Part shown: positions 2,280 to 22,060 of the stretch, piece by piece | Position numbering within the stretch: the first letter of the stretch is position 1 | Layout: each line of letters opens with the position of its first letter | From: a virus | Reading direction: 5' to 3' (one strand) | DNA length: 23,444 nt | IMG/VR virus record: IMGVR_UViG_3300035196_000402 | Span: 1 to 23,444 of that record | Notes under the pieces: generated by a model | Seen by the model: the letters and a program-made list of their open reading frames with translations, nothing else | The model's database searches: none | Told to the model about the DNA's origin: nothing | Program-made: the position numbers and the translations under genes

Positions 2280-2672
2280 ATGTCAGTAAAAGGAAATAAG
2301 AACGCTGAAAAATGGACAGTTAAAGAGGCACGCAAATTAGCTAATAAGGCTTTTGATGCGGTCGATAATGATACTTTCTTTATTTCTTCAATAGCTGAGA
2401 AGTGTGAAACCTATAGAGATTTATTTGCTTATTTGATGGATAAATTTAACGACGATGAAGCCGTTTTTCGCACTTTAAAAAGGATGTACAACAAATGTGA
2501 GTCTATACTATGGGAAAAAGCATCACAGGGAGATATAGATAAGACGATCGCAATATTTGCCCTAAAGTCCTTACATGGATTAATGGAAACAAGCAAGCAA
2601 GAAATTGACCATACAACAGACGGCAAATCCATTAAGCCGATTAACTGGGTGTCTGATGCTCCAAATAAATGA
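2280..2672 (+). CDS. terS: Probable terminase small subunit
   Basis: A 130-residue, largely helical, charged protein directly before the large terminase, overlapping it by 17 bases. The opening (MSVKGNKNAEKWTVKEA) and the helical middle containing a segment around 35-55 resembling a helix-turn-helix style region (ISSIAEKCETYRDLFAYL) fit the small terminase subunits of Bacteroidota phages, which recognise packaging sites and regulate the large subunit. The C-terminal tail (after about residue 112) is polar and probably flexible, as is common where the small subunit contacts the ATPase. The assignment rests on size, composition and position more than on a diagnostic motif. Confidence 0.68.
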   Translation: MSVKGNKNAEKWTVKEARKLANKAFDAVDNDTFFISSIAEKCETYRDLFAYLMDKFNDDEAVFRTLKRMYNKCESILWEKASQGDIDKTIAIFALKSLHGLMETSKQEIDHTTDGKSIKPINWVSDAPNK

Positions 2673-3879
2673 ACACTATAAGCCTCTTTACACATCGAAA
2701 AAGAGGTATTTTCTAGTAACTGGCGGGCGTGGTTCTCTCAAGTCTACGAGCGTACACGATTTTCTAAGCCGCTTAACTTTCGAGGTTGGCCACGGTGTTT
2801 TGTTTCTACGTTACACAATGACAAGCGCGGAAAAATCAATTATACCAGAGTTTAAAGAAGCCATACAGCGAAACAACTCGTACAAACTATTTCAATTCAG
2901 GGGCGATAGGGTAACCAATTTAAAAACAGGCTCGTTTATTATGTTTGCAGGGGTTAAAACAAGCTCAGGAAATCAAACCGCAACGCTTAAAAGTATTCCA
3001 GGGCTAACCACAATGGTAGTAGATGAAGGGGAGGAGTTCACAAACGAAAAGGATTTTGATACCATAGACGATAGTATTAGAAGTAACGACGCGGTTAATA
3101 GAGTTATTTGGATTATGAACCCGACAACGCCAGAACACTTCATTTATAAAAGATGGATAGAACCCGCTAACAAACAAATACAGATTGAGGGCTTTGGGGT
3201 AACGATTTCCAACCTTGACAATGTAGAGCACATACACACTACATACCACCTAGCAGAGCAAGCGGGATACTTGCCGCAAAGTTGGATAGACAAGGCCAAC
3301 AAATCAAAAGAAACCAACTCAAAACACTATTACCATAATTATATTGGCGGTTGGTTAGAAAAAGCTGAGGGCGCAATTCTGCCTAATTGGACCACGGGAA
3401 AATTCGACGAATCATTACCGTGCTGTTACGGCCTCGACTTTGGATTTAATCCAGATCCTTGCGGCTTAATAAAGGTTGCAATAGACAAAAAGAATAAGAA
3501 AATATATGCGGAGGAGTTAGCATATTTGCAAAACTTAGGTACTGACGACATCGAAAAGCTATTACGAGATAGAACAGGACCAAACGAAATGATAATAGCA
3601 GATAGCGCGGGTAAAATAACTATACATGATTTAAGGCAAAGAGGGATAAACGTTCAGGCTTGCATCAAAGGCCCTGGAAGTATAATAGCAGGACTAAAAA
3701 AGATAATGAATTACGAGCTTATAATCTGTGGAAGTTCGCCCAATTTAAAGACCGAATTAAATAATTATATTTTTAACGACAAAAAAGCAGGTATTCCAAT
3801 AGATAAATTTAACCACTTAATCGACCCGTTACGCTATGCATTTGACAGACTCGAAAGGGGAGCGGGTGGAATGCTTTAA
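2656..3879 (+). CDS. terL: Terminase large subunit (ATPase and nuclease)
   Basis: A 407-residue DNA-packaging motor. With the ATG at 2656 as start, the N-terminal ATPase has a Walker A motif at about 23-31 (GGRGSLKST), a Walker B ending in D123-E124 (TTMVVDE) and a coupling motif near 151-158 (WIMNPTTP). The C-terminal RNase H-like nuclease shows the expected three acidic sites: D261 in GLDFGFNPDP, D316 in IADSAG and D390 in LIDPLRYA. This matches the Terminase_3-type large subunits. A longer reading (from 2605) is open but would extend into the small-subunit gene by 68 bases and lacks conserved-looking sequence; 2656 places the Walker A at the usual distance from the N-terminus. It cuts concatemeric DNA and pumps it through the portal. 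Confidence 0.95.
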   Translation: MLQINEHYKPLYTSKKRYFLVTGGRGSLKSTSVHDFLSRLTFEVGHGVLFLRYTMTSAEKSIIPEFKEAIQRNNSYKLFQFRGDRVTNLKTGSFIMFAGVKTSSGNQTATLKSIPGLTTMVVDEGEEFTNEKDFDTIDDSIRSNDAVNRVIWIMNPTTPEHFIYKRWIEPANKQIQIEGFGVTISNLDNVEHIHTTYHLAEQAGYLPQSWIDKANKSKETNSKHYYHNYIGGWLEKAEGAILPNWTTGKFDESLPCCYGLDFGFNPDPCGLIKVAIDKKNKKIYAEELAYLQNLGTDDIEKLLRDRTGPNEMIIADSAGKITIHDLRQRGINVQACIKGPGSIIAGLKKIMNYELIICGSSPNLKTELNNYIFNDKKAGIPIDKFNHLIDPLRYAFDRLERGAGGML

Positions 3880-3920: not shown

Positions 3921-5237
3921 ATGGGAAACTGGTTTCAAGAAAAAGCGTTCAATTTTTTAACGGGATATAAACACTCGGACGTTTTTAGCCTCACAGGCTC
4001 ACAACATAGAAATCTAGCAGATGGCGAACTCATAATGTTAGGATCTGGAAGCTCAAAAGGCCAACAGACCGACAACAAACTTATCACAGAAGGGTTTGAA
4101 CGCAATTCACAGGCGTACGCAATTATCAGAAAGATAGGTGAAACGGGTTCAGATATACCTTGGATACCTAAAGAAATCAAAAAGGATGGAACTTTAGAAG
4201 ATATAAAAGAGGGGCGTTTTTACGATTTCGTCAACCAACCAAACGAGGAGCAAACACAAAAGGATTTTAAGGAACAGTCATTTACTTACATGCTTACTAC
4301 TGGTGATCTATTTTGGCAGCCTGTGGAGTCTATAGGGTTTGGGATTAGCGAACTAAAAACGTGGCCTAGTCAATTGATTGAAGTGTTAAGCACTCAGGCA
4401 AACCCGCTAACCGTTTCAGGGTATATGTTCGAATTAGGACGTTTAAAAGAATCGTTTACTGCTGACGAATTAATCCATTTAAAGTATGTTAACCCAACCA
4501 CCAGAGGCGTAGAATCGCTTCGGGGCTTATCTCCATTGGCGGCGGCTTGGCTTGCTTTGTCTGGTGACAATCAAAGGGCAGAGGCTCAGGATGCAATGCT
4601 TAAAAATAGAGGCGTTGCGGGAATCTTTACAAGTGAAGACGATTACCCTCTAAATCCAGATGAGCAAAAAGAACAGCAAGCAATATTTGACGGCCAAATC
4701 GGAGGTGCAAGCAAATTTAATAAAGTAATAGCGGGAAGAGGGAAAGGGAAATTTATACAAATGGGCATGTCTTCAACGGATTTAGAGATACTAAAAACGG
4801 CTATACAGAATTTAAGGATGCTTTGCAATGTGTACGGTGCACCTTCTGAGCTTTTCAACGATCCTGCAAACAAGACACACGCCAACCAGAAAGCCGCGTT
4901 AAAATCATTTTACGAAAATTCAGTTTTACCATTAGATAGGCGTGTATTATCAAAATTCAATTCAACCGTAGTAAAACATTGGTCCGAGAGAGACGGCAAA
5001 AATTATACAGTCGTACAGGATCTAGAACATATTGGAGCATTACAAGAGGACCAAGATAAAAAAGCGGCGCGCTCTGAGAAGGTGATTAATAGTATTATAA
5101 AAGTAGTTGCACAGGTTAATATGGGACTTTCTAAAGAATCGGCAGCGAGTATTATAGCACACGCGCATAATATGCCAATAGATGAAGCGGCGAAATTCGT
5201 ATCTTTGTTAAACACAAACCAAAATAACAATGAATAA
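3921..5237 (+). CDS. Portal protein (HK97-type)
   Basis: A 438-residue portal protein forming the dodecameric ring at the capsid vertex through which DNA passes. It shows the HK97-family layout: an N-terminal region leading into NSQAYAIIRKIGETGSDIPW at about 62-81, a mid-domain with GDLFW and a beta-rich wing, then the conserved stem helix and clip area with RGVESLRGLSPL near 192 and the AIQNLRMLCNVYGAPSELF block near 295, followed by NQKAALKSFYENSVLPLDRR. It directly follows the terminase and precedes the protease, with which it overlaps by 8 bases. Length is normal for the family. Confidence 0.92.
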   Translation: MGNWFQEKAFNFLTGYKHSDVFSLTGSQHRNLADGELIMLGSGSSKGQQTDNKLITEGFERNSQAYAIIRKIGETGSDIPWIPKEIKKDGTLEDIKEGRFYDFVNQPNEEQTQKDFKEQSFTYMLTTGDLFWQPVESIGFGISELKTWPSQLIEVLSTQANPLTVSGYMFELGRLKESFTADELIHLKYVNPTTRGVESLRGLSPLAAAWLALSGDNQRAEAQDAMLKNRGVAGIFTSEDDYPLNPDEQKEQQAIFDGQIGGASKFNKVIAGRGKGKFIQMGMSSTDLEILKTAIQNLRMLCNVYGAPSELFNDPANKTHANQKAALKSFYENSVLPLDRRVLSKFNSTVVKHWSERDGKNYTVVQDLEHIGALQEDQDKKAARSEKVINSIIKVVAQVNMGLSKESAASIIAHAHNMPIDEAAKFVSLLNTNQNNNE

Positions 5238-5907
5238 AAGCGTTAAAAGTTGCGGCCTTGAGATAAAAGGAATTGAAGAAAGCAAGGGAATTGTAGAATT
5301 TTACTTTTCATCTTTCGGCAATAAAGACAGCGACGGCGATATAATGGAAAAAGGTTCTTTTAAAAAGTCAATAAGCGAAAATCTATCCAGAATAAAACAC
5401 TTTAAAAACCACAATCCACACCTCGCAGTAGGTAGAATTTTAGAATTACATGAAGATTCAAAAGGGGCTTATGCGATCTCTCAAATGTCTAAATCTACGC
5501 TAGGACGGGATACATTAATCGAGTACCAAGAGGGAATGATTACAGAACATTCACACGGATTCCAAACGGTTAGGGAAAACTACAGCAAAGAAAAGGGCGC
5601 GAATGTTATTTCAGAAGTGAAACTATGGGAGGTTTCGAGCTTAACAGCTTGGGGTGCGAATAGTGACACGCCAACTACAGCAATCAAAAGCCTTGAGGAC
5701 GTCGAGACCTTATTTAAAAACCTCGAAAACATACTAACTAAATCTACTATCTCGGATGAGAGAGGGGCAGAGTTACAAAAATCTTACGACCAGTTAGGTA
5801 TTTTAATTAAATCACTTCGCGCGCCGTCCTCGGACACTCTCGAAGCCGAACGGTTAAAGCGTGAGAACGAACAACACATATTTTTAAATACAATCTTAAA
5901 TTCATAA
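5230..5907 (+). CDS. Prohead protease (peptidase S78)
   Basis: A 225-residue serine protease of the HK97 prohead family (S78) that trims the scaffold segment of the major capsid protein during maturation. Visible hallmarks are the GxxxxFxSFGNKDSDGDIMEKGSF block (about 20-44), the catalytic histidine H61 in FKNHNPHLAVG, and the EVSSLTAWGANSDT motif (134-147) in which S136 or S137 is the nucleophile. The C-terminal third after about residue 155 is charged and helical, probably the part that is removed or contacts the capsid precursor. The start at 5230 overlaps the portal stop; the gene ends two bases before the capsid gene. Confidence 0.93.
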   Translation: MNKSVKSCGLEIKGIEESKGIVEFYFSSFGNKDSDGDIMEKGSFKKSISENLSRIKHFKNHNPHLAVGRILELHEDSKGAYAISQMSKSTLGRDTLIEYQEGMITEHSHGFQTVRENYSKEKGANVISEVKLWEVSSLTAWGANSDTPTTAIKSLEDVETLFKNLENILTKSTISDERGAELQKSYDQLGILIKSLRAPSSDTLEAERLKRENEQHIFLNTILNS

Positions 5908-5909
5908 TA

Positions 5910-7202
5910 ATGGAACAAATTTGGTTAAAAGAGGGTAAATTCAAAGAGCTAGATAAAAACACGGCTGAGAATCTACCTATTGAAGAGAAAGCGGCCTACA
6001 TGGTAGCTAGTAACAGTGCAAAAATGGCATCTTTAGAAACTCGAATGAGCGAAAAAGTAGGTACAGAAGCTATTGAAGCGTTAAAAGAACAATTTGGAGA
6101 GCTTAAGGAAAAGCACGTAGAGCAGTTACAGAGCGCAATGGAAGAGCAGGGTAAAACTTTAGCAGACTTAAGAAAGTCAAACGCTATAAGTGCAGCACCT
6201 AAAGGATTCGATGGAGAGTTAAATAATGTTTGGAACAAGTCGAAAGATTCAATTTCTAATTTCTTGAATGAGAAAAGTAACGGCTTTTCGATGAACTTGA
6301 AAACGGAAGTAACAAGAGCATCAGTAGCTAATAATACAATGGCAACAGATGTTCCAGGATTAGGACATATTCCAAGAAGATCGACGGCAGTTTCTGATTT
6401 GTTTAATCAAGCTACAATGGGCGCAAATTCGAACGGCGTTATTAGATACTGGCAAGAAGCGAGTCAAACAGACAACGCGGCACCAGTAGCTGAAAGTGCA
6501 GTTATACCAGAAAGTGCGATTACATGGGAAGAGATATTACTTCCTTTGAGAAAAATCGGCGACTCAATGAGAGTATCTAGAGAGGCACTTGAAGACGTTT
6601 CTTTTATATCTGCTGAGATTAGAAATTTTTCTCTTAAAAATGTAGAGCTACAACTTGATGAGCAAGCTTTATTAGGAGACGGGACAGGTCAAAACTTTAG
6701 CGGTGTTGATTTGGTAGCTCCAAATTGGGCGGCGGGTGCTTTTGGTGGATTGTTTGGTACAGCGGCATCTATTTATGACGTAATATCAACAGGTTTAGTT
6801 CAAATTGCAAACGCAGGGCAAAACAGCGTATTTGTTCCAAATGCGATTGTGATGAATCCTACAGATGCTGAGTTAATGAGATTAACTAAAGATGCTGATA
6901 ATAACTATATCATGCCATCTTGGTTAAGTGTTGATGGTATGGCCGTTAGAGGCGTTCGGATTATAGAATCTCAATTAGTGCCACAAAATCAAGCATACAT
7001 CGGAGACTTTACATTCGGTACAATGTGGGGAGCAGGAACGACTACTTTAGACGTGGCCACTCAACACGGTACAGATTGGATTGAAGATGTACAACGTTTG
7101 AAGGTTACAGTTAGAAAGCAATTAGTAATTAGAACGGCTCACGCTGGTGCATTCTTACATATTGCATCTATCACAGCAGCACAAACCGCGCTTAACGCGT
7201 AA
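5910..7202 (+). CDS. Major capsid protein (HK97 fold)
   Basis: A 430-residue capsid precursor. Residues about 25-95 are a charged, heptad-rich helical segment (LETRMSEKVGTEAIEALKEQ...), typical of the delta-domain scaffold in HK97-type capsids. The remainder, beginning near 100-130, has the usual HK97 major capsid features: a region with VPGLGHIPRRST, an RYWQEA beta-strand, the stretch SAITWEEILLPLRKIGDSMRVSREALEDV, then EQALLGDGTGQNFSGV and a C-terminal AYIGDFTFGTMW. The prohead protease encoded directly upstream presumably removes the N-terminal scaffold; the exact cut site is not evident. An intrinsic terminator follows the gene immediately, as expected for a product made in excess. Confidence 0.94.
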   Translation: MEQIWLKEGKFKELDKNTAENLPIEEKAAYMVASNSAKMASLETRMSEKVGTEAIEALKEQFGELKEKHVEQLQSAMEEQGKTLADLRKSNAISAAPKGFDGELNNVWNKSKDSISNFLNEKSNGFSMNLKTEVTRASVANNTMATDVPGLGHIPRRSTAVSDLFNQATMGANSNGVIRYWQEASQTDNAAPVAESAVIPESAITWEEILLPLRKIGDSMRVSREALEDVSFISAEIRNFSLKNVELQLDEQALLGDGTGQNFSGVDLVAPNWAAGAFGGLFGTAASIYDVISTGLVQIANAGQNSVFVPNAIVMNPTDAELMRLTKDADNNYIMPSWLSVDGMAVRGVRIIESQLVPQNQAYIGDFTFGTMWGAGTTTLDVATQHGTDWIEDVQRLKVTVRKQLVIRTAHAGAFLHIASITAAQTALNA

Positions 7203-7459: not shown

Positions 7460-7966
7460 ATGGGAACTTTCGTAAATACAAGCGATTTTACAAACGGTGA
7501 TATTTTAATCTCTCAAAGTTCGGCAACAGAGCAAGAACTTGAGCCGTATATCGATCTTTTAGAGGTTAATGTATTGCAGGAGTTGTTTGGTTCAGAACTT
7601 TACGGTTTATTTATGGCCGATTTAGTAGGGGGAGTTCCACAGGATGCACGTTTTATAGCTGTATTTGATGCATTTTACGACGACTCGGATAACATCGCTA
7701 GTAGGTCCGAAGGGATTAAAAAGATGCTAATGCGTTTTATTTACTTCGATTTTGCACGTAACCAACCGTATCAAAATACACCAGTAGGAACAGTAAAAAA
7801 CCAATCCGAGAACAGCACGAACGCGAGTAGCCCTTCTTTTGGATTGACTATCAAATACAATTATGGCGTTAATTCATACCAGGCAATAGGTCGTAAAATG
7901 ATATTGGATTCTACAACATACCCAGAGTACAACGGAATAGCAAAAAGAAAAGCAATTTTTATCTAA
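7460..7966 (+). CDS. Head-tail adaptor (connector) protein candidate
   Basis: A 168-residue protein in the position of the first head-tail connector (gp6-like adaptor). The opening (TSDFTNGDILISQ) and the helical region with EPYIDLLEVNVLQELFGSELYGLF, followed by LMRFIYFDFARNQPYQNTPVG, resemble adaptor proteins of Bacteroidota phages that dock on the portal (I associate this pattern with the DUF6712 type). The C-terminus ends YPEYNGIAKRKAIFI. It ends exactly where the next gene begins, with no spacing. Confidence 0.7.
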   Translation: MGTFVNTSDFTNGDILISQSSATEQELEPYIDLLEVNVLQELFGSELYGLFMADLVGGVPQDARFIAVFDAFYDDSDNIASRSEGIKKMLMRFIYFDFARNQPYQNTPVGTVKNQSENSTNASSPSFGLTIKYNYGVNSYQAIGRKMILDSTTYPEYNGIAKRKAIFI

Positions 7967-10372
7967 ATGGCTCAAATAAGAACTAAAGATACAGTCGACG
8001 CGGTTAAAGAATTAGTTTCTCAACTAACGCCTATCTTTATAATTAAGGAGGCTACAGACAACGGAAACGGCACTTTTACACTCTCAACAAATCGCACCTA
8101 TTGGCTCACCATAAACAAGCGAATTACAATAGATTCAATCGAGTACAGGATTACGGCCTTTGATATAAACGTATCTATTACAATTAAGCCAATCACAACG
8201 GGCGATCCAATCCCTTCGATAACGTTTTTTACCATTCCTGCACCTCTGTTTTTTCACGGTGTTACGCTTATGGCTATCGACGAACAAGGCAAGCCAAAAG
8301 ACCCCAACGAAAGAACGCCGTTTGTATGGCTTTATGAGATATTAGACGAAACGGTAATACGGGACGAATTTGATCCGTGGGGGCGTAATTCTAAGCCTCA
8401 GTTATTTTTCATGGATGAGTCTAGCCTTGCAAATTGGACATCTGCACAGCATAAAACAAATGTGCTTGAACCTATGAGGCAAATGGTTGAATTGTTTTTT
8501 GAAAAGATAAACGATTTCCAAGGTGACAAATACAAAGAGATTTTAAATAGTTCGCAAATTGCGCGGGCAAATTGGGGTAAGTTTATAACAGATTTAGGCA
8601 GTGTAAAAAAGTTTTTCAATGAAGACCTTTCAGGTCATCAAATCGGCTTTGATTTCACAATGAGTAAAACCGAGTGCGATACTCGATCTAAAAATGTAGT
8701 ATCATGTGGTTTAACTGCTCAAGTTACAACGGTATCGGAAACTGCGGTCGGTCAAAATGATGGAATTGCAATAGCTACGCCCTTAGGAGGGTTTGGTCCT
8801 TTTACTTATTCATGGAGTGGACCGAGTGCTTATTCGTCAAGTTTACAATGCATCGTTGATCTAGAACCTGGAATTTACACGGTGGTAATAACCGATATGG
8901 GCGTAGAAAGTTGCTCAGACCAAGAAAGCGGAACAGTTGCGGCGGCGGGCAGTGCTTGTGCTTTGGTTATAGATAGTATTACATTTACAGAACCGTCTTA
9001 TTATGGAGCAAGTGACGGAACAGCAACAGTAAACTACTCAGGAAATACTGGAAGCGTTCTAATAGAATGGGACAACGTTCAAACTTCCCAAACTGCCACA
9101 GGATTAACGGCGGGGCGTAGTTGCGTTGTTGTTGTTGATACTGGATCAATAGGATGTTTTAAAATGGGTTTTGTAAATATAACTAATGGGGCTGCATTAT
9201 CATTTAGCTCAAACGCAGCCTCTAGTACAATATTTGGCGTTACTTACACGGGAATTAATACCCTTACATGGACAGACGGAACAGATAATTATACAGGTAC
9301 ATCAGTTACTTTTGCAAACTGGAATGATTCAACCGTAAAGAATGTCAGATTAGATGTAGATGATCCCGAAAATATTATTGGATTTATAGGCAATGCGTTT
9401 AATAATAAGGGCATTATTAGCATGAATTGGGGCGGTATGGCCAATATTTCAGGCGTAATAAATTGTAATAATAATCCAAATTTCACTACTCTTGTAGATG
9501 CACCAGCAACCAATACCATTACAGAGCTTCAATTTTTTGATGCTTATTTATCATCGTTTAATTGGGACAACTATCAGCAATGCGAGTATCTAAGGCTCGA
9601 TAATAATACAAACTTATCTAGTATTACGCTAACTGGTATAACTGCATCCTTAAAGTATTTTAATTATGGTTTAGGTAGTGTGAATATAGACCTTAGTAGT
9701 TTTTCAAACTGTACATCGGATTGTGATATAACTTACACAGGTACAGGAACATTTACACCTCCAGTAATGGGAACTGGATCTATTGACGATGTTGTAATAA
9801 TGAATATTTCTAATAGCACGTTAGATTTAAGCAGCTGGACAAAAGCAAGTTCCAATGCTAACTGGAAGGTGGAAGGTTGCGCAAACCTAACAACCCTTAA
9901 TTTGCCTACGACAACGATAGGACAAATCAATCCAAGAATTAGAGATAACCCTAGTTTAATAACGTGTGATCCTAGCGGATTTTTCGATGTTGAGGGAGAG
10001 TATCAATTCAATCTTAACACATCATTAACTTTATGTCCATTCCCAACCGTAACTATTTCTAGCAAAATTAATTTAACGATGGGTAATAATCTTTTAGGTT
10101 ATAGTGACATAACTGTAATGAGTGGTCTGTTCGGATTCAATAACGTTATCATTCAATTATTAAATAACTCTATGTCAACTATCGTGGTTAATCATTACTT
10201 GATCGATATATTATCTATGGTTTCAGGAGAAAGCCCAGGAGGTGACTATACAGGTAGAGCAGTAAGCATAAACGGCACAAATGCAGCCCCAGATGGTTCT
10301 AGTGGAGGTTATGACGGCGATCAAGCCGTAATTGATTTGGTAGCTCTAGGATTTACAATAACAACTAGTTAA
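7967..10372 (+). CDS. Neck protein fused to SprB-like and LRR-like modules
   Basis: An 801-residue chimeric virion protein. Residues 1 to about 242 look like a neck or head-closure domain of Bacteroidota phages (TNRTYWLTINKRITIDSIEYRI, then a helical WLYEILDETV...LEPMRQMVELFF section), in the gene position expected for that role. Residues about 243-323 form a SprB-type repeat (GGFGPFTYSWSG, then LEPGIYTVVITDMG and a closing Cys), and about 329-404 a second, more divergent copy. Residues about 405-760 are Asn/Thr/Ser-rich with irregular leucine-rich-repeat-like units (CEYLRLDNNTNLSSITLTGI). The C-terminus ends in a cap, INGTNAAPDGSSGGYDGDQA then a short helix and GFTI. SprB repeats are known from flavobacterial gliding adhesins. 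I infer that the extra modules project from the neck and bind the host surface; family calls for the repeats are by pattern only. Confidence 0.75.
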   Translation: MAQIRTKDTVDAVKELVSQLTPIFIIKEATDNGNGTFTLSTNRTYWLTINKRITIDSIEYRITAFDINVSITIKPITTGDPIPSITFFTIPAPLFFHGVTLMAIDEQGKPKDPNERTPFVWLYEILDETVIRDEFDPWGRNSKPQLFFMDESSLANWTSAQHKTNVLEPMRQMVELFFEKINDFQGDKYKEILNSSQIARANWGKFITDLGSVKKFFNEDLSGHQIGFDFTMSKTECDTRSKNVVSCGLTAQVTTVSETAVGQNDGIAIATPLGGFGPFTYSWSGPSAYSSSLQCIVDLEPGIYTVVITDMGVESCSDQESGTVAAAGSACALVIDSITFTEPSYYGASDGTATVNYSGNTGSVLIEWDNVQTSQTATGLTAGRSCVVVVDTGSIGCFKMGFVNITNGAALSFSSNAASSTIFGVTYTGINTLTWTDGTDNYTGTSVTFANWNDSTVKNVRLDVDDPENIIGFIGNAFNNKGIISMNWGGMANISGVINCNNNPNFTTLVDAPATNTITELQFFDAYLSSFNWDNYQQCEYLRLDNNTNLSSITLTGITASLKYFNYGLGSVNIDLSSFSNCTSDCDITYTGTGTFTPPVMGTGSIDDVVIMNISNSTLDLSSWTKASSNANWKVEGCANLTTLNLPTTTIGQINPRIRDNPSLITCDPSGFFDVEGEYQFNLNTSLTLCPFPTVTISSKINLTMGNNLLGYSDITVMSGLFGFNNVIIQLLNNSMSTIVVNHYLIDILSMVSGESPGGDYTGRAVSINGTNAAPDGSSGGYDGDQAVIDLVALGFTITTS
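8693..8935 (+). repeat. SprB-type repeat module 1
   Basis: Encodes about residues 243-323 of the neck fusion protein. The pattern of a SprB repeat is seen: GxxGPFTYSWSG, a variable loop, a Leu-Glu-Pro-Gly turn, YTVVITD and a terminal Cys. This is the better-conserved of the two copies. Confidence 0.65.
8951..9178 (+). repeat. Divergent SprB-like repeat module 2
   Basis: Encodes about residues 329-404 of the neck fusion protein. It keeps the order SDGTATVNYSGNTGSVLIEW, then TGLTAGRSCVVVVDTGSIGC, which parallels module 1, but the GG/YSW core is altered. A second, decayed or specialised Ig-like copy. Confidence 0.5.
9179..10369 (+). repeat. LRR-like, Asn/Thr/Ser-rich repeat region
   Basis: Encodes about residues 405-801 of the neck fusion protein. 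Irregular units of roughly 20-25 residues with Leu/Ile/Phe at beta-strand positions and Asn or Cys turns (for example LRLDNNTNLSSITLTGI and LTTLNLPTT) suggest a solenoid, ending in a cap with NGTNAAPDG. Spacing is too irregular to define unit borders by eye. Confidence 0.45.
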
Positions 10373-10375
10373 TAA

Positions 10376-10561
10376 ATGGAAGAGAATTTCACAAAGCCGA
10401 TAAGATTAATTTATAGCATTGATTATAATTGCTATACATTATTTACGTCTGGTAAGACTTATTTTGATGAATCAAAATACAGCGTTAAATATTTCGATAC
10501 TATTGAAGAGGTTAGAGATTTTTTAACTAGCGAGGGAATAGACATAGTAGAATTTAATTAG
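10376..10561 (+). CDS. Small protein of unknown function
   Basis: A 61-residue acidic protein with no membrane segment or Cys cluster. The second half (YFDTIEEVRDFLTSEGIDIVEF) looks like a beta-strand, helix, strand unit, as in small phage accessory proteins with an amphipathic FxTxEEAxxFL helix, but I do not recognise a family. It starts four bases after the neck fusion gene and precedes the promoter of the tail tube gene. A role as chaperone or partner of the neck protein is possible only by neighbourhood. Confidence 0.5.
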   Translation: MEENFTKPIRLIYSIDYNCYTLFTSGKTYFDESKYSVKYFDTIEEVRDFLTSEGIDIVEFN

Positions 10562-10580
10562 TAATAAATTTTAAAAACAT

Positions 10581-10588
10581 TAACTTTG
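10581..10588 (+). promoter_or_regulatory. Candidate -7 promoter box before tail tube (TAACTTTG)
   Basis: TAACTTTG matches TAnnTTTG in the 68-base gap before the probable tail tube gene. The -33 element is weak (TTAG at 10558-10561, 19-base spacer). It would give a leader of about 35 bases. Together with the terminator after the gene, it would make this a separately expressed unit. Confidence 0.5.
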
Positions 10589-10629
10589 AACTAGCTAAAT
10601 ATAAATATTAACAACTAAATTTTAAAATT

Positions 10630-11583
10630 ATGATACCAGTATGTAATTGTGCCGATGGGAGCACTATCCAAAACTTTGGAGGCTTTGAAAAATGTAGTAA
10701 AGGAATCGGTATTCCTTTGAGTATAACGTTTAACACAGAAGAAACCGTTGGTGGTTTAGTTAACGGAATGATTCTAGCGAGTGAAACTCCTAATCAAGCT
10801 TTTTTTGATAGTAAGTATGGAAACCAAGTTGTCGAAGATAGATGGTTAAGATTAGATGGTATAAAGCAATATGATGCGCCGCCAGTTGATCCAAATACTC
10901 AAGAATTTGACGATGGCTCAAGTTATGTTTTAAATAAAAACAGTAAAGAGGTTTCCTTTATAATCGTAACACCAGAAGCTAATAAGATGTTAGCAAAAGT
11001 AGAGGCGTCTGTAGAATGTCGTGGAATGTTGGCATCTTTTGGTGATTCTTTTGATAATTGGGTAGGTGAAAGCGACGGTACTAACTTTAAAGGGCGTAAA
11101 ATCCAAGATGGTTCTTTTTCCGCTAGTGTTATCGATAGAACAGACGGGAGCGTATCTCAATTGGTTATCAAATTCAAATGGGATCGTTCGGCTCTTGAGA
11201 CTTCTGTAGATTATATTGCTTCATCATCAATGGATGGTTATTCTATTAAAAATGATACCATTGATTTAATCGATGCAAGGATAGTTTATGGTGCATCTTT
11301 AACTACTGGAATCGCTTTCAATGTACATTCAGATATAGGTGGAGTTTCTAGCAGGTTGCCTTTGGGCGGGCTTACAGAGGTAAATCTAGAAGCTTACAAT
11401 ATTACTGATTCACAACTTGAACCAGGAACGACAAGCGAGGCAACTGTAGGCGATTATATATTCACATATACAACGCCTATTGCAGTTGGAAAGGATATTA
11501 CAATTAGACCTGTAACTAATCCAATCCAAAAAACTTACGACTGTAAGGCTTTAGTTGCTACATTATTTGCAACGTCTGCTTAA
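10630..11583 (+). CDS. Probable major tail tube protein
   Basis: A 317-residue beta-rich protein in the slot between the neck genes and the tape measure gene. It has its own promoter box upstream and a strong terminator downstream, matching a product needed in many copies. The N-terminus is unusual (CNCADGSTIQ then FEKCSKGIGIPL), with three Cys in the first 22 residues. The middle contains TPEANKMLAKVEASVECRG and a segment KGRKIQDGSFSASVIDRTDGSVSQLVIKFKW that reads as tube-like beta hairpins; the C-terminus (about 240-310) could be an Ig-like decoration. I did not find a diagnostic motif, so the call rests on position, size and expression signals. Confidence 0.65.
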   Translation: MIPVCNCADGSTIQNFGGFEKCSKGIGIPLSITFNTEETVGGLVNGMILASETPNQAFFDSKYGNQVVEDRWLRLDGIKQYDAPPVDPNTQEFDDGSSYVLNKNSKEVSFIIVTPEANKMLAKVEASVECRGMLASFGDSFDNWVGESDGTNFKGRKIQDGSFSASVIDRTDGSVSQLVIKFKWDRSALETSVDYIASSSMDGYSIKNDTIDLIDARIVYGASLTTGIAFNVHSDIGGVSSRLPLGGLTEVNLEAYNITDSQLEPGTTSEATVGDYIFTYTTPIAVGKDITIRPVTNPIQKTYDCKALVATLFATSA

Positions 11584-11681: not shown

Positions 11682-11984
11682 ATGGAAATAGTTATACAAA
11701 ATATTAGATTTGTTTATCCAGGCTGTAAAATGCTAACAAAAGAAAAACTTTACGCTTCTTATGGGGACAAAGAAATAAATGGAAGCAAAGGCAAACCAAC
11801 GCACCACAATTTAAACAAGCACAACGCGGATAGAGTTTTCGAAGCATTGGAGCAAGCGATAAAAGACAAAATCGAGATCGACAAGCGAGATAAGGAAGCG
11901 GCAAAACCCAAAACGATTGAGGTTGTAAAGGTGGAAAAGACCGAGCCAAAAAAGAAAAAGAAATCCACAAAAAACAATAAATAA
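11682..11984 (+). CDS. Small Lys-rich protein in tail module
   Basis: A 100-residue protein of unknown function. The first half (MEIVIQNIRFVYPGCKMLTKEKLYASYG) may form a small fold; the second half is helical (NADRVFEALEQAIKDKIEIDKRDKEAA) and ends in a strongly basic tail (KKKKKSTKNNK). I start it at ATG 11682; an in-frame start at 11604 is possible on paper but would place the terminator stem and promoter box inside the coding region. Stop and next start overlap (TAATG at 11982-11986). It lies in the tail assembly region, but nothing identifies its job. Confidence 0.62.
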   Translation: MEIVIQNIRFVYPGCKMLTKEKLYASYGDKEINGSKGKPTHHNLNKHNADRVFEALEQAIKDKIEIDKRDKEAAKPKTIEVVKVEKTEPKKKKKSTKNNK

Positions 11985-12466
11985 TGGGTGATTTTTTCGG
12001 AGCTTTTAGAGAGTTGCGGGATAGGGTGTCATCAATTAATCAAAATGTATTAATCAATACCATTTTAAGCCGTCCAGAGTACCAAAAATTCATTATAGAA
12101 CTCAATACGGAGGTACAACTATTCGAGCTCAATGTGGACTCGGACGGCATTAAATTGGCTGCGAATCGTTCAGGGTATTCTATTAATACGCTAAGGATTT
12201 CAGCGGAGGAGGGACGGCCAAAGAGAGGGCGGGATCGCGTCGATTTACACGATACAGGCGATTACTATAGAAGTCACGCCGTTGAAATCGGATCATTAAA
12301 AGACAATTATTTCACAATGTTATCGGACGCTCAAAAAGATGACACCGATTTGATAGATGAGTGGGGGCCTGTGTTGGGGCTTACTGTGGATAGCATGAAT
12401 AAGCTTTCCGAGTTTATACTATTGGCATTTTTGCCGCTATTATTAGAAGAGATTCAAGATGTATAA
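11984..12466 (+). CDS. Tail completion or minor tail protein candidate
   Basis: A 160-residue protein. Its centre has VDLHDTGDYYRSHAVEIG (about 87-104), similar to the LxDTGxLxxS pattern of HK97 gp10-like tail completion proteins, preceded by helical N-terminal sequence and a charged patch (GRPKRGRDR). The C-terminus is a hydrophobic helix (LSEFILLAFLPLLLEEI, about 141-157). This would suit a protein capping the tail or joining it to the head, but the order here, after the tail tube, is not the usual one, so a minor tail role is equally possible. Overlaps the next gene by 8 bases. Confidence 0.5.
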   Translation: MGDFFGAFRELRDRVSSINQNVLINTILSRPEYQKFIIELNTEVQLFELNVDSDGIKLAANRSGYSINTLRISAEEGRPKRGRDRVDLHDTGDYYRSHAVEIGSLKDNYFTMLSDAQKDDTDLIDEWGPVLGLTVDSMNKLSEFILLAFLPLLLEEIQDV

Positions 12467-12972: not shown

Positions 12973-15900
12973 GTGGCAACAAAAAGAATACAGCACGACG
13001 ATCTATTTGAGCCAAAGATCGCGAAAGGAATCATTAAGGAGCTCAATGACCTTATAGACAAAGGCGAAGAAACCGAAAAGACACTTAAAGGCATTTTAAA
13101 AGTATTGCAAGACATCGACGGGATTAAAACAGCCGAAGAGTTCAAAGCATTTACGGCACAATCTGAGAAGCTAACCAAGGCACAAAAAGAACTAGTAAAG
13201 ACTGAACAGGAACTGGCAAAGGTTCAAGAGCGTATCATTAAGGATATTGAAAAGCAAGCCGAAGCAAATAAGAAACTTTCTAAAACCGAGGCCGACAAAA
13301 TAAAGTTAATCAACAGGCTAAACGAGGCCAATTCTACTAGAGTAGAAGGTAATGAAGTTTTAAAAGTTCAACTACAGGAACAAAACAAAGTTAATAAAAA
13401 CAGGGCAAAAGAGGCCTTAAACTTAATAGGTGCATATGAAAAAGAATCAGCAACGCTCAATAAATTAAGGAAAAAGTATAAAAACTTAGCTGTCCAGAAC
13501 AAGGAAAACACTGAGGAGGGCAAAGATTTATTAAAAAATATTACCAAGTTAGACAAAAAATTAAAGGACGTTGATGACACTGTAGGTCAAAACCAAAGGT
13601 CGGTAGGCAAGTACGAAAAGGCGCTTTCTGGATTGAATAACACAATAGGCAAGTTAGGGGTTATTGCCTTAATTGCTAAAGGATTTCAAATCCTTAGCGA
13701 TCTATTCGGATCGAGTAGAGAAGGCGCTCTCGAGTTACAGATTGCCCTGTCAAAATTCACAGAATCGGCAAAAGTTTTTGTTAATAATTTTATAAAATCG
13801 TTAACAGGTATTAAAGATGTAATATTTGGCGTTATAGAGGCAGCCGTTGGAGCGTTAGCGCCATTATTAACAACGCTCATAAAAACCCAACTATTAGCAC
13901 TTAAAGCGGCAAGGTTTGCAAAGTCATTAATAGGAACAACGGAAAAACTAGACAGCGCAATAAGTGGACTTGAGGCAGGATTGAGATTAATAGATTCAGC
14001 CAGTTTTAGTGATGGCCTGGACAGAATTTCAGAAGGAGCGGAGAAAGTTTCTAAGGCTTACGAGGGAACTGTTGAAACAACATCCAAAGCCATAGAAGCA
14101 CAAGAAAAATACTTAAGACTTCAATTAAGAACCAGAATCGAGATTGAACAGCTAGAAAAATCACTGGCGGGATTAGCTGAAAAGAGACAAATACTCCAAG
14201 ATATAAGCGATGATGACACGATAGGGTTCGTTACCAGAGCTAAAGCGGTTAAAAAAGCACAACAGGCGGCGGAAAATTTCGCAGATTTAGAAATAAAACT
14301 AGCGCTAATAAAAGAAAAGTTAACAATTCAGGCCGTTAAGCAGGATTTAATAAGGTCAAATACATTGAGTGAAATTGAAATTGCAGCAATTCAAACAGGC
14401 GAACAGCTCAAAATGATTCTTTTAGATTACGACATCGCGAAAAAAATATCCGACTCCAACGACGAGGCATTTACAGCGGCATTTGTAGAGCGAAGAGATA
14501 AGCAAGTGGAGGCCGAATCTTTCAGAAGAGACCAAGAAGAAAAGAACAGAAAAACAGCGCGGGATGCTTTCGAGCAAGAAAATGATATTTTAACCGAGTT
14601 TACAGAGTTAAAGATCGCGGCAAATGACAAGATAATAAGCAGCGATAAATCCACACTTTCGGAAAGGCAAAAAGCATTTGCAGCAAATCAAAAGTTAGAA
14701 AAGGATTTATTTGACAACAGTATAAATCTAATAATAGAACAGGGTAAAGCCTCTATTGATCTACTTAAAGAAACAATAGATTTAAGGACAGATTTAACGA
14801 AAAAAGAAAAAGAAGAAGAAAAAGCACTACTAGACAAACGAAAAGCACTAATAACAAACGCGGCTATTGAAAAAATACTTAACGAACAAGACATTGTTAA
14901 GCAAGGTATACTTATACGAAACATAGACCTCGGAGAGATTGAGGAGAAAGTACTAAAAGACACTTTAAAACTAAAAAAAGAATTAGCAGAGGCGAGCAAA
15001 GAAGCAGCCGAAGCAACAGAAGAAGCAGCCAAAAGAACAACTGAATTAAATCAAGACATACTTACTCAGGAACGGTTTTTAAAAGGCCAGTTAGAAGATT
15101 TAGACGCGGAGCAGTTAGACAATGAAAAACAACAACTCGAAGAGAGAATTAAACTATTAAAAAAGGATTCAATCGAACGATTAGAACTAGAAAAAGAGTT
15201 GAATGATTTACTAATTGATGAAGCGAAAAATAAAGATGAAATAGAAAAAGAAGCAAGGAAAAATAAATTACAAGAAAATAAAGATCTTATAGATTCAATA
15301 GGAGCCGCGTTTATAGAAGGATTAGACAAGCGAAACGATGCAGAAAACAATAGGCTTGATGCACAAGTTCAAAAGCAAGAGAGTTCCTTGTCTATACAGG
15401 AGCAACGAGCAAGGGACGGTCTCTCTAATACATTAGCATTTGAACAGGAACAACTTGATAAAGCGAGGCTGGCAAAACAGCAGGAACTAGAAAGGCAAGC
15501 CAAAGAGCAGGAAATAATCGCACTCGTACAGGCTTATTATAATCAATTCCAAGAACTATCGAAAGAAGATCCAGACACGGCAGCGGTTAAAGCGTTTACT
15601 AATACGTTACTCGCTAAATCAATCGCAAAAGGTTTGACGGGTTTCATAGATGGAACGGAACTAGTCGAAAGGGATATGAACGGTAGCAAGTTCAGCAGCG
15701 GCCAAGACGGTTACATCGCTAAATTTGACGGTAAAGAAAGGATTTTGAACCCGTCTCAAAATATGGCACTACCCAAAGGAATGAGCAACGACGAACTCGT
15801 GCAGGCTGCAAAAGACTATTCAAACGGTAATACATGGGGCTTTATGCCAACAGTAACAGGATCAACAGACTCGAAAGCCGCAACAAAGGCAATCATTGAA

Positions 15901-16056
15901 AGCAATAAGCAGGTAATTAGAGCCATTGAAAGCAACGCCGCTAGTATGAATGTAGATTCTGAGGGTATGATGCATATGGTAGAAAGTAGGGTATCGAGAG
16001 GTAAAAAAGAATTGATTCATTTTATCAATAAGAAGTATAAAATGTTGCCTAAATAA
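12973..16056 (+). CDS. Tail tape measure protein
   Basis: A 1027-residue protein that sets tail length and is ejected ahead of the DNA. It is mostly coiled coil, rich in Lys, Glu and Ala. Residues about 155-217 carry the pattern seen in Bacteroidota tape measures: a LNKLRKKYKNLA helix, later LDKKLKDVDDTVGQNQRSVGKYEKAL. Hydrophobic stretches at about 227-245 and 283-310 could insert into the host membrane. Near the C-terminus (about 895-930) is a FIDGTELVERD...FDGKERILNPSQN segment, also common in these proteins. The start is GTG at 12973. By the usual ratio of about 0.15 nm per residue the tail would be near 150 nm. Its C-terminus overlaps the next start (TAATG, 16054-16058). Confidence 0.92.
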   Translation: MATKRIQHDDLFEPKIAKGIIKELNDLIDKGEETEKTLKGILKVLQDIDGIKTAEEFKAFTAQSEKLTKAQKELVKTEQELAKVQERIIKDIEKQAEANKKLSKTEADKIKLINRLNEANSTRVEGNEVLKVQLQEQNKVNKNRAKEALNLIGAYEKESATLNKLRKKYKNLAVQNKENTEEGKDLLKNITKLDKKLKDVDDTVGQNQRSVGKYEKALSGLNNTIGKLGVIALIAKGFQILSDLFGSSREGALELQIALSKFTESAKVFVNNFIKSLTGIKDVIFGVIEAAVGALAPLLTTLIKTQLLALKAARFAKSLIGTTEKLDSAISGLEAGLRLIDSASFSDGLDRISEGAEKVSKAYEGTVETTSKAIEAQEKYLRLQLRTRIEIEQLEKSLAGLAEKRQILQDISDDDTIGFVTRAKAVKKAQQAAENFADLEIKLALIKEKLTIQAVKQDLIRSNTLSEIEIAAIQTGEQLKMILLDYDIAKKISDSNDEAFTAAFVERRDKQVEAESFRRDQEEKNRKTARDAFEQENDILTEFTELKIAANDKIISSDKSTLSERQKAFAANQKLEKDLFDNSINLIIEQGKASIDLLKETIDLRTDLTKKEKEEEKALLDKRKALITNAAIEKILNEQDIVKQGILIRNIDLGEIEEKVLKDTLKLKKELAEASKEAAEATEEAAKRTTELNQDILTQERFLKGQLEDLDAEQLDNEKQQLEERIKLLKKDSIERLELEKELNDLLIDEAKNKDEIEKEARKNKLQENKDLIDSIGAAFIEGLDKRNDAENNRLDAQVQKQESSLSIQEQRARDGLSNTLAFEQEQLDKARLAKQQELERQAKEQEIIALVQAYYNQFQELSKEDPDTAAVKAFTNTLLAKSIAKGLTGFIDGTELVERDMNGSKFSSGQDGYIAKFDGKERILNPSQNMALPKGMSNDELVQAAKDYSNGNTWGFMPTVTGSTDSKAATKAIIESNKQVIRAIESNAASMNVDSEGMMHMVESRVSRGKKELIHFINKKYKMLPK

Positions 16057-17852
16057 TGAAATTAGTTTATATCATAAATGATGGTCAAGTAGAAAAGCCT
16101 ATAAACTCGGAGGCTGTGGATATTGAATTGAATTTTGATAACTCAGATCCTGACAGTGCAGGAACTATTTCGCTTTTAAACTTTGATTTTACAATAGATG
16201 CGGCCAAAATAATAAACGAGCATTTTGAGGGTGGTATGTCTGGAGGGCCTGGGGTGTTCGAGGGTTTGCCGTTTAGATTAAATTTAGAGGAGGGTTCTGA
16301 GGTTCTGGAACTAATAAGGGGTTATATTGATCTTACAAATTCAGAGGTAGTTTTCAAATGCGATAGAATAGAGGCGTTTGTAAAGGAGGCGGGTTCTAAA
16401 ACATGGCTGGAAGACGGGGCTGAAGATTCGTTTAATTATCAATATTTAGAGGTTGAAAAAAGGACTATAACATCTTCAGATTATATTTTCCTACCCTATG
16501 TCATTTCATCTGTACCAAATAACAAAGAGATAGCCATATTATTGTTAATGGGATTCTCAGTAACATTAGCTCTACGCGATGCAATACAAAATGTAATACA
16601 AACAGCCGTTGAGTTTGCTGGGGTTGCGTCTGGGATACGTGCTGTAATTAAGTTTATATTGATAGTAGCTTATTTGATCGTGTTGATAATAACGATTGTA
16701 AATTTAATTCGGGACATAGTTAACCAAATTATACAGCCTGTAAAGTACCACGCTTGTATGAGATTGCAAACACTATTAGAAAAAGGAGCAGAACAGTTGG
16801 GACAGAAGTTTGAGTCATCTGTTTTCCTTGATCCTGTTTGGCGCGATATGGTTGTTTTGCCTGCGAAATATTCAGTCCCACTATCGGAAAAAGATGAAAA
16901 TATATTCGGTTTTACAAAACCAGATGCAACTATACAAAAAGGGTATTATAATGGCACTTTCGGTCAGTTAATGCGTTCTTTTGAAACGTTAATAAATGGA
17001 AAAAAGTTTGTGGGTGATGGTGTTATTAGAATCGAGCGTCGGGATTATAACCCCTTAACAGTCAATTTTAAGATTCCAGACGTTGAAATTAAGGGGTTTG
17101 GAATTAATGCCAACGAGTTAAAATCTAATATTCTGCTAAAATTCACAACCGATTTACAAGATACAAACACTATCGATAATTATACTGGCAATGTATGCCA
17201 AGTAATCACAAGTCCCGTATCTGTAGATAATCCAGACATGGTTTTGATGAGTGGATTGAATAGCATAAACAGTGAATTTTCGAGGGGTTTAATCAAAGAC
17301 GATTTCACAGGCCCAGAAAGGTTTGTACTCGGAATATTAAAGCCTATAGATAAGTTAATTGGTGGATTATCAAAAGCCGCTTCAAAAGTTGGTATAAATA
17401 TAACAAAAACAGACCTTTCAGCGATTATAGGTAAGCGGCTCGGTATGTTGAAACTAGGAAATGATTTTACATCTACGCCAAAATTAATAACATTAGATAT
17501 TTCACCAAATGCAGAAGGGACAAAATTAAAAGAGGTTAACCAGGAGCGCGTAAATATGGGCGATATTTATGACAGATACTACAAAATAGACAGTTTCACA
17601 CCGACCAAGGATAATGAAAACGCTAACCAGTATAAAAAATATGAGGCGCCGCCGTTTAATATGTGTTTTGATGACTTTAAGAGCATTATAAAAAGTAATG
17701 TTATCTTTGATCAAGTAGGTAGGATTGGGCAAATGACTGGATTAGTTTTAAATGTTGAAAGCGAGCAGGCAAGAGATGTTAAATTTAGAATAAATGAAGC
17801 ATATACTACAAATCTTAAGGATAATAAAATAGTTTCGGATGGGATCGGATAA
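16056..17852 (+). CDS. Tail tip hub/baseplate protein with membrane helices
   Basis: A 598-residue protein immediately after the tape measure gene, the usual place of the distal tail or hub protein. The N-terminus (about 1-110) is beta-rich (VDIELNFDNSDPDSAGTISLLNFDF, LIRGYIDL). It is followed by two hydrophobic helices, at about 158-173 (IAILLLMGFSVTLALR) and 196-218 (AVIKFILIVAYLIVLIITIVNLI), unusual in a tail-tip protein. The rest is soluble and mixed. The helices may be shielded in the virion and inserted into the host membrane during DNA entry; this is inference. It overlaps the next gene by 14 bases. Role by position and length; no enzymatic motif seen. Confidence 0.65.
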   Translation: MKLVYIINDGQVEKPINSEAVDIELNFDNSDPDSAGTISLLNFDFTIDAAKIINEHFEGGMSGGPGVFEGLPFRLNLEEGSEVLELIRGYIDLTNSEVVFKCDRIEAFVKEAGSKTWLEDGAEDSFNYQYLEVEKRTITSSDYIFLPYVISSVPNNKEIAILLLMGFSVTLALRDAIQNVIQTAVEFAGVASGIRAVIKFILIVAYLIVLIITIVNLIRDIVNQIIQPVKYHACMRLQTLLEKGAEQLGQKFESSVFLDPVWRDMVVLPAKYSVPLSEKDENIFGFTKPDATIQKGYYNGTFGQLMRSFETLINGKKFVGDGVIRIERRDYNPLTVNFKIPDVEIKGFGINANELKSNILLKFTTDLQDTNTIDNYTGNVCQVITSPVSVDNPDMVLMSGLNSINSEFSRGLIKDDFTGPERFVLGILKPIDKLIGGLSKAASKVGINITKTDLSAIIGKRLGMLKLGNDFTSTPKLITLDISPNAEGTKLKEVNQERVNMGDIYDRYYKIDSFTPTKDNENANQYKKYEAPPFNMCFDDFKSIIKSNVIFDQVGRIGQMTGLVLNVESEQARDVKFRINEAYTTNLKDNKIVSDGIG

Positions 17853-21712: not shown

Positions 21713-22060
21713 ATGCAAGAAACATATCCACATCTTAAGAGTCAATGCTGTAGACTTAAAACTCAAGTATCGGAAAATACATTGCAAAAGATATTAGCAA
21801 ACGCAGAGTTAAACAATTCAGACGTATATCCCGCTCAGGATACAGGGAACTTCATGCAATTTGATATGACTAACGAGGCAGAGGGTTATCCGTGTGTTCA
21901 TTTAGGCGAAGAGGGTTGCACCATACATTCTACGAGACCGTCTCAATGTGCATCGTTTCCTTTAACTGAAAAAAGCATAAAATCATGTTCGGGTTGTAGC
22001 TATACATTTGATACGAACGAAAATAGGTCTGGATCATGCAACGGGTGTAATGTAATATAA
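21713..22060 (+). CDS. YkgJ-like cysteine-cluster protein
   Basis: A 115-residue protein with nine cysteines. The core (about 60-83) shows YPCVHLGEEGCTIHSTRPSQCASFP, a close fit to the CxxCxxCC/YkgJ (PF03692) signature C-hL-x-CxIhxxRPxxC-xFP, thought to bind iron or zinc. The N-terminal CxxCxxCC part is reduced to a CC pair (C12, C13). An extra pair of CxxC motifs (C92/C95 and C109/C112) closes the protein. Family members include flagellin lysine methylase FliB, but most are uncharacterised, and no methyl-donor site is visible here. It starts directly after the fibre stop with no gap, so it is co-expressed with the fibre. A role in modifying or folding tail proteins is speculation. Confidence 0.75.
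   Translation: MQETYPHLKSQCCRLKTQVSENTLQKILANAELNNSDVYPAQDTGNFMQFDMTNEAEGYPCVHLGEEGCTIHSTRPSQCASFPLTEKSIKSCSGCSYTFDTNENRSGSCNGCNVI

Follow-up and report, generated by a model that had tools for sequence, protein, structure and literature searches.

The 801-residue protein encoded between the adaptor-like gene and the tail tube gene of the window, i.e. of the complete 23.4-kb virus record analysed here, is probably the tail terminator of a siphophage with a Flavobacterium-type host, carrying a C-terminal adhesin arm whose tips are exchangeable and which may serve for reversible binding to surfaces; we put the probability of this reading, which draws in part on predicted structures, at about 0.68. 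Among the related loci, the N-terminal anchor is conserved, the modules behind it vary, and a small downstream gene co-segregates with the tip.

The window has the gene order of a siphophage (Table 1), with further tail genes lying between the tail tube and tape-measure genes. Several tail genes match phage families common to Flavobacterium phages, and the product of gene 16056-17852 shares 25-26% identity along its whole length with proteins from phages that infect F. psychrophilum and other Flavobacterium. A host of the Flavobacterium type therefore seems likely. The gene for the 801-residue protein sits inside the phage structural cluster, unlike the gene for the very large SprB gliding adhesin that is secreted by the type IX secretion system (T9SS) and moved by the gliding machinery, and no T9SS sorting domain was present among its Pfam or NCBIfam matches. 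An extension controlled by a frameshift as in SPP1 is unnecessary here, as the open reading frame is continuous. A cysteine-rich protein of 115 residues that, by eye, has the look of a YkgJ-type metal-binding protein is encoded at 21713-22060 within the tail-fibre gene cluster.

Table 1. Genes of the window and parts of the 801-residue protein
Feature	Residues	Position	Basis or remark
Terminase		2605-3879	
HK97-type portal		3921-5237	
Probable protease		5230-5907	
Major capsid protein		5910-7202	
Probable head-tail adaptor, 168 aa		7460..7966 (+)	after capsid gene, directly upstream of the 801-aa gene; conserved order
Predicted tail terminator-adhesin fusion, 801 aa	1-801	7967..10372 (+)	contiguous open reading frame
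Tail-terminator-like anchor domain	1-238	7967..8680 (+)	conserved in 18 loci; Foldseek and structure comparison
Beta-barrel insertion following the N-terminal helix of the terminator fold	~20-93	8024..8245 (+)	pLDDT ~70-90
SprB/Ig-like module 1	246-329	8702..8953 (+)	Pfam and predicted fold
SprB/Ig-like module 2	330-408	8954..9190 (+)	Pfam and predicted fold
Beta-rich segment ahead of solenoid	~409-470	9191..9376 (+)	strands in predicted model
LRR-like solenoid (tip)	~470-735	9374..10171 (+)	predicted fold; Pfam LRR below cut-off
C-terminal cap	736-801	10172..10369 (+)	conserved across all LRR-tip relatives
Small ORF, 61 aa, putative tip-type-specific partner, second cassette gene		10376..10561 (+)	homology to small ORF of the other LRR-tip lineage
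Probable tail tube protein		10630..11583 (+)	85% identity to L006; precedes tape-measure gene; first conserved gene past cassette
Tail protein		11984-12466	phrog_6195, E 2.5e-14; conserved downstream of tube
Tape-measure gene		12973-16056	

The N-terminal domain as a predicted tail terminator

Two lines of evidence concern the identity of the N-terminal domain: the fold predicted for it and its position in the gene order. In Foldseek searches, the best matches were the terminators of phage lambda (gpU, the top match) and of cyanophage A-1(L), with weak E values of 0.027 and ~0.03, respectively. In the structure comparison, about 32 of the 50 listed matches were terminator or neck chains of phages or cap chains of tailocins at Z scores of 6.5-8.3, where a Z of 7-8 by itself can reflect a common arrangement; they include lambda gpU, T5 p142 and the terminators of Bxb1 and R4C. 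Nearly all of the remaining matches among these 50 align to the barrel at residues ~20-93 alone, which resembles the EF-Tu domain-2-type barrels and the tail-tube protein of T1 (Z 6-7). The terminator alignments span residues ~5 to ~235 with just 112-149 residues paired, as is expected if a barrel has been inserted after the first helix, and an insertion domain adjacent to the N-terminal helix has been described for the R4C terminator (PMC10276861). The model of the domain is of modest confidence (mean pLDDT 63.9, and ~45-70 in residues 94-240), and that of the full-length protein has a mean pLDDT of 65. Two short structural neighbours of the N-domain, with 228 and 246 residues, were found in BFVD and may be terminators devoid of a tip.

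Searches with the sequence of the domain gave no terminator match in Pfam, PHROG or NCBIfam. Terminators share a fold with little sequence similarity. A single relative matched phrog_19838 (head and packaging, E 0.0014), which gives weak support and no assignment. The order of adaptor-like gene, N-domain gene, small ORF and tail tube gene is the same in all relatives read; wherever the region is on the contig and was read, the N-domain lies between the adaptor-like gene and the tail tube, and the 801-residue protein is encoded by the only sizeable conserved gene in this interval. The match list filled by one functional family, together with the right position in the gene order, provides strong joint evidence that residues 1-238 adopt a terminator fold, as predicted by the model. 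The placement of the domain at the neck, as proposed from its position in the earlier note on this DNA, is thus borne out, and a neck anchor that displays adhesin-type modules is supported, the anchor now being a predicted tail terminator.

In the region 7460-10630, no gene for a separate stopper (head-closure) protein could be recognised between adaptor and terminator. Some phages do without a stopper, and the inserted barrel of the terminator could replace the missing protein here. For the adaptor-like protein, three relatives show a weak similarity to DUF6712 below the cut-off (E 0.012-0.053). The version of this protein encoded in the window is devoid of a stretch of six residues with two cysteines (the VVGWCCG region) that its counterparts in L001, L002, L006 and L007 contain (L numbers designate the related loci).

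Ig-like stalk, solenoid tip and cap

The presence of two Ig-like modules of the SprB type at about residues 243-404, claimed previously from the letters of the DNA, was confirmed both by profile and by predicted fold. The SprB family of Pfam (PF13573) matches the protein in two stretches with E=1e-6 and 28.7 bits, at a gathering score of 28; the match rests on both copies since each of them alone scores below the cut-off (24.2 and 20.0 bits). The model contains Ig-like domains in both modules (pLDDT ~70-88). They adopt an Ig/PKD-like beta-sandwich fold similar to GhpA and to the PKD domains of ColG (Z 8.6-9.4); the matches to GhpA, the grappling-hook protein of Aureispira, range from Z 7.3 to 9.4 at 22-27% identity, and the match to Hoc has a Z of 8.4. 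The SprB profile is matched by 10 of 12 family members (best E 8.9e-8), with scores of 31.9 for L021-L023 and 28.7 for L025. None of the control genomes exceeded the SprB cut-off, and all SprB matches in the records searched fall within this one gene.

Between zero and two SprB modules are present in the relatives, and they are absent from L006 and L007, the closest relatives with a different tip, in which the anchor is retained. Since their number varies in this way and they have been lost in L006 and L007, the modules are most likely spacers. A role as a dedicated receptor-binding element was rejected on account of the same loss.

The tip of the protein was previously described as an LRR-like region of about 400 residues with a cap. 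The solenoid fold and the conserved cap hold up, but the Pfam LRR profiles (LRR_4, LRR_5, LRR_EndoS) all score below the cut-off against the 801-residue protein. In the structure comparison, residues ~470-735 match SDS22 (Z 14.0 over 246 residues), the FSH receptor (13.8), a TLR4 hybrid (11.7) and BRI1 (10.9), at a modest pLDDT of ~60 for this region of the model. We therefore regard the LRR assignment as a call at the level of the predicted fold, made with moderate confidence. The cap is retained even in L021-L023, whose N-domains are only ~50% identical. The beta-rich segment ahead of the solenoid shows a weak similarity to CBM49 below the cut-off. Similarities of the protein to DUF, REase-ARP, PCNA and Kelch families were weak and were discarded as chance matches.

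Tip variation and the small downstream gene

Scans with widening alignments identified 18 related IMG/VR loci that share the N-domain. A comparison of the relatives had been set beforehand as a test of the idea that extra modules are mounted on a shared N-terminal domain, and in these 18 loci they do indeed vary on it. An N-domain followed by two SprB modules, LRR and cap is found in the window, in L001 and L002 and in the more distant L021-L023. L006 and L007 combine the N-domain with a lectin-like tip. A single SprB module precedes a Laminin_G_3 tip in L020 and a relative of this tip in L024, and L041 has two SprB modules in front of the same tip class. One SprB module with a second lectin-like class is present in L016-L018, L025 and L037, and two further tips are found in L026 and L034. 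One tip passes the threshold for Laminin_G_3 (E 7.6e-9); in profile comparisons, this tip yields matches to an S-layer-domain protein and, at a weak level, to ConA. The second lectin-like class has a banana-type lectin as its best match (E 0.008), which is too weak to name it by fold. A profile comparison between the two lectin-like types gave no similarity, and they were kept as separate classes; apart from the LamG tip, most tips are without a Pfam match, and "lectin-like" is used partly by analogy.

The annotated phage collection yielded no homologue of the N-domain, the tail tube, the LRR tip or two of the small-ORF types, and the genome contigs searched likewise yielded none of the N-domain. 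In the viral contigs, the class B small ORF was found only in members of this family or near-copies of them. UniProt contains entries from uncultured phages that are named 'SprB repeat'.

The tips do not follow the anchor: among eleven representatives, tip similarity and N-domain identity are uncorrelated (r=0.07, permutation p 0.27), and sister pairs with unrelated tips have N-domains that are 84% (window and L006), 88% (L024 and L025) or 67% (L034 and L041) identical. The small ORF, in contrast, tracks the tip. Related small ORFs occur in 7 of 9 tip-related pairs versus 1 of 46 others, with a permutation p of ~1e-4 that is a guide only, as the pairs are non-independent and the sample is small. 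The sole exception is the pair L006/L025, whose tips are similar at a weaker level (tip z 4.0) and fall into one class. The 61-residue ORF of the window is homologous to its counterpart in the other LRR-tip lineage (z 6.4-6.9), and unrelated ORFs stand behind the other tips. An ORF of 58-92 residues lies directly behind the adhesin gene in the window and in L006, L016, L020, L021, L024, L025, L034, L037 and L041, and its family follows the type of the tip.

At the DNA level, the identity between the window and L006 drops at ~8680 and resumes at ~10,600, just ahead of the tail tube gene. Between L024 and L025, it drops after the SprB module and resumes at 100% right after the small ORF. L024 carries a tip and a small ORF at ~8900-9770 that are unrelated to those of L025, flanked by tail-tube DNA that is 100% identical, and the two loci apparently reflect a recent exchange of the cassette. 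As the small ORF follows the tip and the DNA identity returns past it, the unit that is exchanged on the fixed neck anchor is, as judged from these comparisons, the tip plus the small ORF, with or without SprB. Genes located behind tail-fibre tips offer an analogy, according to which the small ORF probably encodes a tip-specific chaperone or partner. It is tempting to speculate that the terminator is a universal socket in a two-gene system, in which each tip (LRR, LamG or other lectin-like) has its dedicated small partner of 58-92 residues, a tip-specific chaperone or co-adhesin, and recombines with it as a unit between the terminator domain and the tail-tube gene; for this more specific proposal we see an even chance. 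The swapping of tips points to selection for altered binding specificity.

Proposed function and known systems

Terminators form a hexameric ring atop the tail tube. Judged from fold and position, the terminator core of the 801-residue protein would form such a ring, placed between head connector and tail tube, and each subunit would point one arm outward at the neck, giving six arms, each with a stalk of two SprB-type Ig-like domains followed by the LRR solenoid as the tip. The tip would then probably make reversible contact with glycans or proteins of the host surface, or with surrounding material, which would keep the virion close to the cell up to the moment when the tail tip engages its receptor. 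Lectin-like domains replace the tip, and sometimes the stalk as well, in related phages, along with the small ORF. We infer the hexamer, the display of the arms, the binding and the chaperone role; binding is the likeliest function since the tips are of LRR or lectin type and are exchanged as units.

An arm of Ig and LRR domains might instead be structural or protective, stiffening the head-tail joint or shielding the neck, with tips that vary neutrally. Just six copies are expected, and infection can often proceed without the Ig-like domains of tail tubes (PMC9022992), both of which would suit such a role. Neutral stiffening, however, does not predict that tips of wholly different folds are swapped intact with a matched small gene, and one of these tip classes is a lectin-type Laminin_G_3 domain; we consider this explanation improbable. 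The same low probability applies to the idea of a collar or tail fibre protein that is distinct from the terminator and attaches to the neck or tail through its N-domain. Neck passage proteins and the collar spikes of XM1 are indeed encoded by separate genes, the terminator match is absent at the sequence level, and the PHROG 'tail protein' encoded at 11984-12466, the main competitor for the tail-completion function (as completion protein or chaperone), could itself be a competing completion protein. Yet the interval from adaptor to tube contains no other conserved gene of appreciable size, terminators fill the list of fold matches, and the N-domain has been retained in every relative found.

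The earlier note had also linked the SprB modules to the gliding machinery. This link is unsupported, and it is very unlikely that the modules bind this machinery or mimic the mobile adhesin. They do match the SprB repeat family, and for gliding flavobacteria it has been suggested that the gliding machinery includes the receptors of phages (PMC7345892); apart from the name of the family and this general connection between gliding and phage sensitivity, we found no support. SprB repeats are a common Ig/PKD-like module, widespread in T9SS-secreted proteins of the Bacteroidota in general (PMC7073777), and here they are dispensable, their number being variable and the anchor persisting where they are gone.

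If the interpretation as a terminator with swappable adhesins is true, it adds a core neck protein to the Ig-bearing phage proteins, and neck-mounted adsorption extends from the Gram-positive hosts of dairy phages to phages of the Bacteroidota. A role of the neck adhesin in host attachment can be tested with the naturally occurring sister pairs, in which different tips sit on almost the same anchor, and the tip-matched small ORF leads to a direct, testable prediction on arm assembly.

A terminator-adhesin fusion or a phage virion protein with SprB repeats was not described in the literature searched. The earlier view of an unusual host-interaction device away from the tail tip stands with respect to the neck anchor with adhesin modules, but has to be toned down as to how unusual the device is, given the precedents of the lactococcal neck passage structures (NPS), the XM1 spikes and the Ig domains of the R4C adaptor and of Douge. 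Five classes of Ig-bearing phage proteins have been distinguished (fibres, baseplates, tail tubes, capsid proteins and Hoc), and terminators are absent from them (PMC9022992). With these virion-surface decorations, i.e. T4 Hoc, lambda gpV, the capsid and tube of Douge and the R4C adaptor, which has an Ig domain (PMC10276861), the modules studied here would share the location on the virion surface and a binding of cell-surface glycans, suspected or demonstrated; the Ig domains of Douge bind mycobacterial glycans. The difference is that the modules in the window belong to the SprB family, rather than to Big_2, I-set or FN3, and are carried on a predicted terminator. In SprB and GhpA of the Bacteroidota, the Ig-like repeats share family or fold with these modules, but the two proteins are cell-surface adhesins of thousands of residues, whereas one or two repeats are found here in a predicted virion protein. 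The siphophage terminators (lambda gpU, T5 p142, R4C, Bxb1 and Douge) resemble the N-domain in fold and position, including the R4C insertion near the N-terminal helix, but they have ~120-180 residues without adhesin arms, as compared to ~240 residues plus up to 560 residues of Ig and LRR or lectin-like modules. The gp40 collar spike of XM1 (PMC10457771) is likewise a host-sensing neck appendage and touches the stopper and the terminator, but it is a separate trimeric spike of a myophage.

The closest parallel is provided by the neck passage proteins of lactococcal 936 phages, in which the N-terminus is constant, the carbohydrate-binding ends are exchanged and binding to host cells has been shown (PMC6669499). 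The NPS proteins of the 936 and P335 phages (PMC6669499, PMC10747895) share with the 801-residue protein the constant N-terminal neck anchor (~180 residues in NPS), the exchanged binding tips, the location at the neck and, as far as it can be inferred here, the accessory role in adsorption. They differ in being separate collar proteins with a BppU-like N-domain and a trimeric coiled-coil stalk, present in 18 copies on the adaptor. In the window, the stalk is of beta/Ig type with no long helix from residue 241 to the tip, the anchor is terminator-like, the tips of the family include LRR, and a small gene is exchanged along with the tip. The arm looks as if it works like a neck passage structure, with the difference that the predicted terminator itself serves as the anchor.
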